From Gemmatimonadota bacterium (GTDB taxonomy: Bacteria; Gemmatimonadota; Gemmatimonadetes; Longimicrobiales; Gaopeijiaceae), in the NCBI GenBank assembly GCA_030428885.1, contig JAUIEJ010000015.1:1-64000 (forward strand): a stretch of DNA of 64,000 bases, in the 5' to 3' direction. This document shows, one piece after another, positions 3,167 through 4,615 of the stretch. Both the position numbers and the translations under genes were made by a program. The notes below the pieces were generated by a model. That model had not been told where the DNA came from. It ran no database searches and worked only from the letters and a program-made list of their open reading frames with translations. How positions within the stretch are numbered: position 1 is the first letter of the stretch; each line of letters starts with the position of its first letter.

Positions 3167-3388
3167 ATGAGCAAGAACAACGAAGTCCTCACCGTCCCGT
3201 GGCTCCTGGCCATCGCCTTCCTGCTGCTGGCGGCCGCCATGTTCGAGAAGGGCCTCAACCTCTTCGGAATGAGCATGCCCCTGGTGGCGGTCTACCCCCG
3301 GCAGCTCCTGGACTGGGCCGTGGCCATCGCCACCTTCGAGATCGCCCTCACCCTGCGCCAGCTCTTCGAGGCCCGGAACCGGGAGTAG
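3167..3388 (+). CDS. Small two-helix membrane protein, function unknown
   Basis: A 73-residue protein starting at ATG 3167, after a GAGAGAAG ribosome binding site. There are two hydrophobic segments, roughly residues 9-27 ('VPWLLAIAFLLLAAAMFEKG') and 47-65 ('LLDWAVAIATFEIALTLRQL'), with short polar ends and a basic C-terminus. No family is recognised. The short distance (66 bp) to the downstream selenoprotein on the same strand allows co-transcription. The spacer contains a weak inverted repeat (CCGAGC...GCTCGG) without a U-tract. Confidence 0.6.
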   Translation: MSKNNEVLTVPWLLAIAFLLLAAAMFEKGLNLFGMSMPLVAVYPRQLLDWAVAIATFEIALTLRQLFEARNRE

Positions 3389-3454
3389 CTTGCCCCGAGC
3401 GCCGGGCCCACCGTAGGCTCGGGACCCGTTCCCCACCGAACCCGGAGATCCGGC

Positions 3455-3802
3455 ATGGCGACCCTGGAGTGGCGGTACCACCGCCCTGGCTGAACGAGCT
3501 GCGCCCGCACTCGGGAGTTTCTCGAGCAGAACCACATCGACGACGGCGAGGTCCGCAGCGCCTCGAAAGACCCCGTGGTGGGAGACGACGCCCTGAAGGT
3601 TCTCCAGGGGATCGACGACCTCTACGTGGCCAAGGGCCGAAAGACCCTACACGTGGACCTGAAGAACGCCCGCCCCCCGGACGACGAGCTCCTGGGCCTC
3701 CTCCTGGGCCGATCGGGCAAGCTCCGGGCCCCGGCGCTGAAGACCGGTCGCACGCTCATCGTGGGATTCAACGCCGACATCCTGACCGACCACCTGGCCT
3801 GA
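3455..3802 (+). CDS. ArsC-family (seleno)protein; TGA at 3491-3493 read as selenocysteine
   Basis: Reading from ATG 3455 gives a 115-residue thioredoxin-fold protein of the ArsC/Spx type if the in-frame TGA at 3491-3493 is decoded as selenocysteine. The redox motif then reads G-U13-T-S-C16, a UxxC version of the CxxC/CxnC catalytic site, followed by 'ARTREFLEQNHID' (the usual helix 1 of ArsC proteins). The body has 'LLGLLLGRSGKLRAPALKTG' and 'TLIVGFN', the ArsC-family C-terminal RxP region. Sequence continuity on both sides of the TGA in one frame, and a SECIS-like hairpin directly after it, argue against a nonsense mutation. From memory, public annotation uses 'ArsC family (seleno)protein' for such sequences. 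The natural reaction is unknown; a thiol/selenol oxidoreductase is likely. A TGA-blind caller would report only a C-terminal fragment from GTG 3575. Confidence 0.85.
3494..3526 (+). promoter_or_regulatory. Bacterial SECIS element (selenocysteine insertion hairpin)
   Basis: Directly after the in-frame TGA (3491-3493), bases 3510-3516 (CTCGGGA) pair with 3520-3526 (TCTCGAG). This gives a 7-bp stem with one G-U pair and a 3-nt loop GTT at 3517-3519. The loop begins 24 bases after the TGA and its first base is G. Bacterial SECIS elements are described as having a small apical loop 16-37 nt after UGA with a guanosine in the first two loop positions, and this hairpin meets all of that. It lies inside the coding sequence (T-R-E-F-L-E). 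SelB binding is inferred. Confidence 0.75.
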
Positions 3803-3811
3803 GGAGGGCCG

Positions 3812-4615
3812 TCAGGCCACCCATTCCCGGAGCGTGTCCACCAGGGCCCGGGACGACCCCGCCAGGAGCGAGCCCGGAAGCAGGTCGGGGGGGCCTCCCT
3901 CGACCCGTTCCACCACGCCGCCGGCCTCCTGGATGAGGATCACCCCGGCGGCGAAGTCCCAGGGACTCAGGCGGTATTCCCAGAACCCGTCGAACCGGCC
4001 GTCGGCCACGTAGGCCAGGTCCATGGCGGCCGAACCGCCCCGGCGAATGCCCGACGTACCCGCCAGCACCCGGCGCACGGCGTCCTGGAAGCGATCGAGG
4101 TTGCCCATGTCCTTGAAGGGGAATCCGGTCCCCACCAGGGCCCGCTCCATGGGTCCGGGCGCGGCAACCCGGATGGGCCGGTCGTTGCGCCACGCCCCCC
4201 CGCCCCGCCGCGCCCACCACCGCTCGCCGCTGGGGGCGCTCACCACCGCCCCGGCCACCGGCCGCCCCTCCACCGCCACCGCCACCGAGGCGGCGTGGGC
4301 CGGATGGCCGTGGAGGAAGTTGGTGGTGCCGTCCAGGGGGTCCACCACCCAGATGGGCGTGTCGTCGTCGGGCAGCTCCGGCGGTGCGTCGTCTTCCTCG
4401 GCCAGGATCAGATGATCCGGATGCCGACGCCGTATGATCTCCAGGGCGGCTGCCTGGGCCGCGTCGTCGGTCTCCGAGACGAAGTCGGCCCGGCCCTTGA
4501 GCCGAGCGTCGCCGGCCCCCACCCGTCGCAGGTGTTCGCCGTGGATGCGGGCCGCCGCGTCGGCGGCGTCCAGGGCGGTGCGGAGCCAGAGGTCGAGGGG
4601 CTGATCGGGAGGCAT
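3812..4615 (-). CDS. Inositol monophosphatase family protein
   Basis: A 267-residue Mg2+-dependent phosphatase of the IMPase/FBPase superfamily. All metal-site motifs are present: 'ILAEEDD' (Glu ligand), 'WVVDPLDGTTNFLHG' (DPLDGT signature) and near the C-terminus 'SPWDFAAGVILIQEAGG' (WDxAAG). The length fits SuhB/IMPase enzymes, which hydrolyse myo-inositol-1-phosphate or related sugar phosphates in the cytoplasm; 3'(2'),5'-bisphosphate nucleotidase activity cannot be excluded. The start at ATG 4615 gives the N-terminus MPPDQPLDLWLR. It converges on the selenoprotein with 9 bp between stops and diverges from the propeller lipoprotein gene. Confidence 0.9.
   Translation of the reverse strand: MPPDQPLDLWLRTALDAADAAARIHGEHLRRVGAGDARLKGRADFVSETDDAAQAAALEIIRRRHPDHLILAEEDDAPPELPDDDTPIWVVDPLDGTTNFLHGHPAHAASVAVAVEGRPVAGAVVSAPSGERWWARRGGGAWRNDRPIRVAAPGPMERALVGTGFPFKDMGNLDRFQDAVRRVLAGTSGIRRGGSAAMDLAYVADGRFDGFWEYRLSPWDFAAGVILIQEAGGVVERVEGGPPDLLPGSLLAGSSRALVDTLREWVA

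Follow-up and report, generated by a model that had tools for sequence, protein, structure and literature searches.

A well-supported bacterial SECIS element in an ArsC/Spx-like selenoprotein gene from a Gemmatimonadota bacterium

Introduction

The bacterial SECIS (bSECIS) consensus is that of Zhang and Gladyshev, restated in PMC13188914. In this model 16–37 nt separate the UGA from the apical loop, the upper stem has 4–16 bp, the loop has 3–9 nt with a G at position 1 or 2, and the minimum free energy is −7.5 kcal/mol or lower (PMC13188914). A review of the prokaryotic selenoproteome lists the protein family considered here as ‘Arsenate reductase-like protein’, with a UxxC motif, from the GOS study (PMC13188914), and the curated family NF041106 (ArsC_rel_Se_1, ‘ArsC family (seleno)protein’) is most likely the ‘Arsenate reductase 2’, likewise UxxC, of the GOS 2008 study (PMC2398784). 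The nearest solved folds and sequences are those of Spx and ArsC-related proteins (PDB 1z3e, 6ghb).

The locus described here lies in a stretch of 64,000 nucleotides of a Gemmatimonadota contig, referred to below as the window. Its product shares with NF041106 and ‘Arsenate reductase 2’ the position of selenocysteine and the UxxC motif, and no structural feature distinguishes it from them. With the Spx and ArsC-related proteins it shares the thioredoxin fold, the CxxC motif and an LRxP segment, but its first Cys is replaced by Sec. The RNA element resembles the bSECIS consensus in its small loop with a leading G followed by U, in the length of its upper stem, in its spacing and in its location within the coding sequence just past the UGA. 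The evidence supports well a genuine but ordinary bacterial SECIS element in a further member of a family that has already been described.

The gene and its product

The gene and the signals that belong to it, all on the plus strand, are as follows.

3443..3448, plus strand: possible Shine-Dalgarno sequence CGGAGA, some 6 nt upstream of the ATG, judged from the sequence
3455..3802, plus strand: open reading frame with an in-frame TGA, encoding an ArsC/Spx-like selenoprotein of 115 residues when TGA is translated as U
3491..3493, plus strand: UGA codon for Sec (codon 13), opening the UxxC motif; in homologues TGA, or TGC/TGT in 54 aligned loci
3510..3516, plus strand: 5' arm of the SECIS, CTCGGGA (sequence, covariation, folding)
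3517..3519, plus strand: apical loop of the SECIS, GTT (leading G in 99% of TGA homologues)
3520..3526, plus strand: 3' arm of the SECIS, TCTCGAG (sequence, covariation, folding)

Translated with TGA as U, the protein begins MATLEWRYHRPG-U-TSC..., so that U stands where a CxxC motif has its first Cys. It scores 116 bits against NF041106, above the curated cut-off of 85. Scores fall below the cut-offs for Spx (TIGR01617 and related, 26–28 bits against 75–123) and for Pfam ArsC (PF03960, 20.3 bits against a gathering score of 24). An AlphaFold2 model of the protein has a pLDDT of 96.5; the closest solved folds are those of Spx (Foldseek E about 2e-4, TM about 0.55), and Spx is also the top match of the family profile. 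The product would be a small redox protein of ArsC/Spx fold with a UxxC active site, more probably with a thiol-disulfide or reductase function than with one in RNA polymerase binding.

To look for a conserved neighbourhood, eight window genes near the locus, the borders of some being approximate, were compared by tblastn with the flanks of 97 relatives. Only one gene gave matches, scattered and weak, and the genomic context is therefore uninformative on function.

The hairpin downstream of the UGA codon

As an earlier note on this DNA had read from the letters, a 7-bp stem with one G-U pair and a GTT loop follows the TGA. The seven pairs between 3510–3516 and 3520–3526 are contiguous, the single G-U lies at 3514–3522, and the loop opens at the 24th base after the TGA, with 23 nt in between. 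The note had also stated that loop distance, small loop and leading G match the SECIS consensus; agreement is found for the loop (three nucleotides, G within the first two positions), the stem (7 bp) and the spacing (23 nt), whereas the energy falls on one or the other side of the limit depending on the flanking sequence counted. The bare hairpin, at −7.0 kcal/mol, is slightly weaker than the published cut-off and in this respect lies at the edge of the bSECIS model; with three flanking nucleotides on each side it reaches −8.1 kcal/mol, and a fold of 3500–3535 that includes it −9.5. The free strand 3494–3526 favours another fold, at −12.6, in which the 3' arm is taken up by CGAG at 3495–3498. 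When the ~6 nt directly behind the TGA are kept out of pairing, the SECIS hairpin is the optimal structure, and a ribosome standing on the UGA should block those nucleotides and hence the rival fold. An Rfam scan of 3300–3900 matched no family, even at E 10.

The note further called an accidental fit unlikely, which a single sequence did not justify. When our own version of the published bacterial SECIS rules was applied to every TGA trinucleotide of the window (954, counting both strands and all frames), 16.7% were followed by a hairpin of equal or greater stability. A SECIS is therefore not established by the lone sequence. Once homologues had set the register, only 0.07% of synonymous-codon shuffles of the gene formed all seven pairs.

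Homologues with TGA and with Cys codons

In a search of the phylum, every match above the NF041106 cut-off has exactly one TGA in a frame that is otherwise intact. A scan of genome contigs with a profile built from five closer sequences found TGA at the site in 77 of 80 loci, the other three, all from Schlesneria, having TGC; the loci are labelled Gemmatimonadota, Latescibacterota, Acidobacteriota, Planctomycetota, Myxococcales/Polyangia, Zixiibacteriota and Tectomicrobia, among others. Many TGA forms and many Cys forms occur in Planctomycetia. Alignment of 297 loci at this codon gave 242 with TGA, 54 with TGC or TGT and one with another codon.

Individual loci depart from the common form. In one TGA homologue (L097) Tyr takes the second place of the UxxC pair, which may be an error or a lost resolving Cys. 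The matches of L171–L174, L176, L179 and L180, labelled Acidobacteria, exceed the usual length by about 30 nt, which points to an insertion specific to that lineage.

Conservation and covariation of the stem

It is the comparison of homologues that decides the question. Of the distinct TGA homologues, which come from several phyla, 163 of 175 form at least six of the seven pairs in the same register; of the Cys homologues, 1 of 43 does (Fisher p 8e-33, relatedness ignored). When only starred branches of the tree were counted, seven independent Sec/Cys contrasts were available and the sign test was borderline (median p 0.06). The loop starts with G in 99% of the TGA sequences, compared with 40% of the Cys sequences.

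For 75 representatives of the TGA sequences the share of paired cells is 94.7%, compared with 31–66% when the structure is slid by 1–3 columns, and 58 double-sided cells were observed against 16 in shuffles. Pair 2 (3511–3525) occurs as G-C, U-A, C-G and A-U, and both pair 4 (3513–3523) and pair 7 (3516–3520) alternate between A-U and G-C. A protein tree from which the SECIS columns had been omitted requires at least 18, 11 and 11 compensatory changes of pair type at pairs 2, 4 and 7, respectively. The check that had been proposed for the hairpin, compensatory stem changes in homologues that retain TGA, thus gave a strongly positive outcome, with the Cys homologues as negative control.

One genus-level group with TGA, L101–L113, was left out of the 75 representatives and included among the 175 distinct sequences. 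The stem is absent in register there, and a different hairpin is possible by eye. The sequence after the UGA also differs in this group (CACCCGTGCGGTG), and its SECIS, if any, would be another hairpin.

Selenocysteine machinery and proposed decoding

The genome from which the window derives contains a tRNA-Sec (74.5 bits, anticodon TCA, UCA in RNA), SelA (519 bits), SelB (644 aa, with the winged-helix domains SelB-wing_2 and _3) and SelD, which has an in-frame UGA of its own. Among 58 relatives, tRNA-Sec matches above 60 bits were found in 17 of 18 that have the gene versus 19 of 40 that lack it. In Planctomycetia a tRNA-Sec is present in 33 of 38 TGA genomes versus 22 of 42 Cys genomes; the five TGA genomes without a strong tRNA-Sec are perhaps incomplete. 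The three Cys-form genomes of Schlesneria have no tRNA-Sec above the cut-off, whereas all of seven TGA genomes from other lineages have one.

The locus combines a TGA at a Cys position, a conserved and covarying hairpin that is lost in the Cys forms, and a genome with the Sec genes. The hairpin is almost certainly a conventional bacterial SECIS by which the UGA at 3491–3493 is read as selenocysteine in a protein of the NF041106 family. A ribosome would arrive at this codon, the C-terminal winged helices of SelB would bind the hairpin at 3510–3526 with its GUU loop, and SelB would bring Sec-tRNA(Sec) and GTP, whereupon the UGA would be decoded as selenocysteine. What the earlier note took for a SECIS is thus supported by covariation, by loss in Cys homologues and by a full set of Sec machinery in the genome.

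Alternative explanations

The hairpin might be a by-product of the conserved protein sequence T-Q/R-E-F-L-A/E, with no function in the RNA. This motif is indeed well conserved in TGA homologues, and synonymous shuffles of the TGA genes already retain 4.19 pairs; the 6.49 pairs observed lie far above this, while Cys genes have 2.93 against 2.72. Changes at third codon positions and changes that replace an amino acid are matched on the opposite side of the stem, as in CTCGAGA/TCTCGAG, CGCAAGA/TCTTGCG, CTCAAGG/CCTTGAG and CACAAGA/TCTTGTG, and both hairpin and motif are gone in Cys homologues. Given the compensatory changes at pairs 2, 4 and 7 and this loss, a purely protein-level origin is extremely improbable and was rejected.

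A lone in-frame TGA near the start of an isolated gene without conserved neighbours would also be expected of a pseudogene or a sequencing error. The single TGA recurs, however, in every above-cut-off match of the phylum search, in frames otherwise intact, and across several phyla in independently assembled genomes; both possibilities were rejected on these grounds and retain a negligible probability. Readthrough of the UGA by another route (a code change, another suppressor, Trp), or a hairpin that mainly regulates initiation or termination, is very improbable: the residue replaced is the first Cys of CxxC, encoded by TGC or TGT in relatives, the Sec machinery is complete, and UGA is not reassigned, because ordinary genes in the window terminate with TGA, e.g. 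at 3800–3802.

Constraint on the protein and replacement of Sec by Cys

Entropy at positions +7 to +10 after the site is 0.73, 1.24, 0.51 and 0.27 in TGA proteins versus 3.03, 1.65, 2.17 and 1.19 in Cys proteins, the former being much the more uniform, a contrast that is suggestive only, because the two sets differ in taxonomic breadth. Hairpin remnants persist in some Cys-encoding genes (L255, and partly L251 and L260) whose nearest relatives mostly encode TGA. L255 (G573:C6) keeps six of the seven pairs, its eight nearest relatives all have TGA, and its genome still has tRNA-Sec; nested among Sec homologues, it is apparently a relic of a Sec-to-Cys replacement. On balance we favour a model in which the SECIS dictates Q/R-E/G-F-L-A/E, a constraint relaxed after Cys replaces Sec, and in which true Sec-to-Cys conversions are preserved in the family.

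What began as a guess from a lone sequence is now a selenoprotein gene with good support, one that standard annotation would overlook or begin too far downstream. The Sec and Cys forms that occur together in Planctomycetia provide a good natural set for the study of Sec loss, and equally for that of a coding-region RNA element which constrains protein sequence.

There are further candidate sites. The SelD gene of the same genome (L068, 1531–1590) encodes GAG-U-ACK, and two adjacent hairpins are predicted after its UGA. Another ArsC-like frame with TGA, YEKPT-U-TTCRK, occurs at L116–L119 (G215, G301, G346, G028) in the same bacterial family; a Cys form of it exists (L126), and it is possibly a second ArsC-like selenoprotein.
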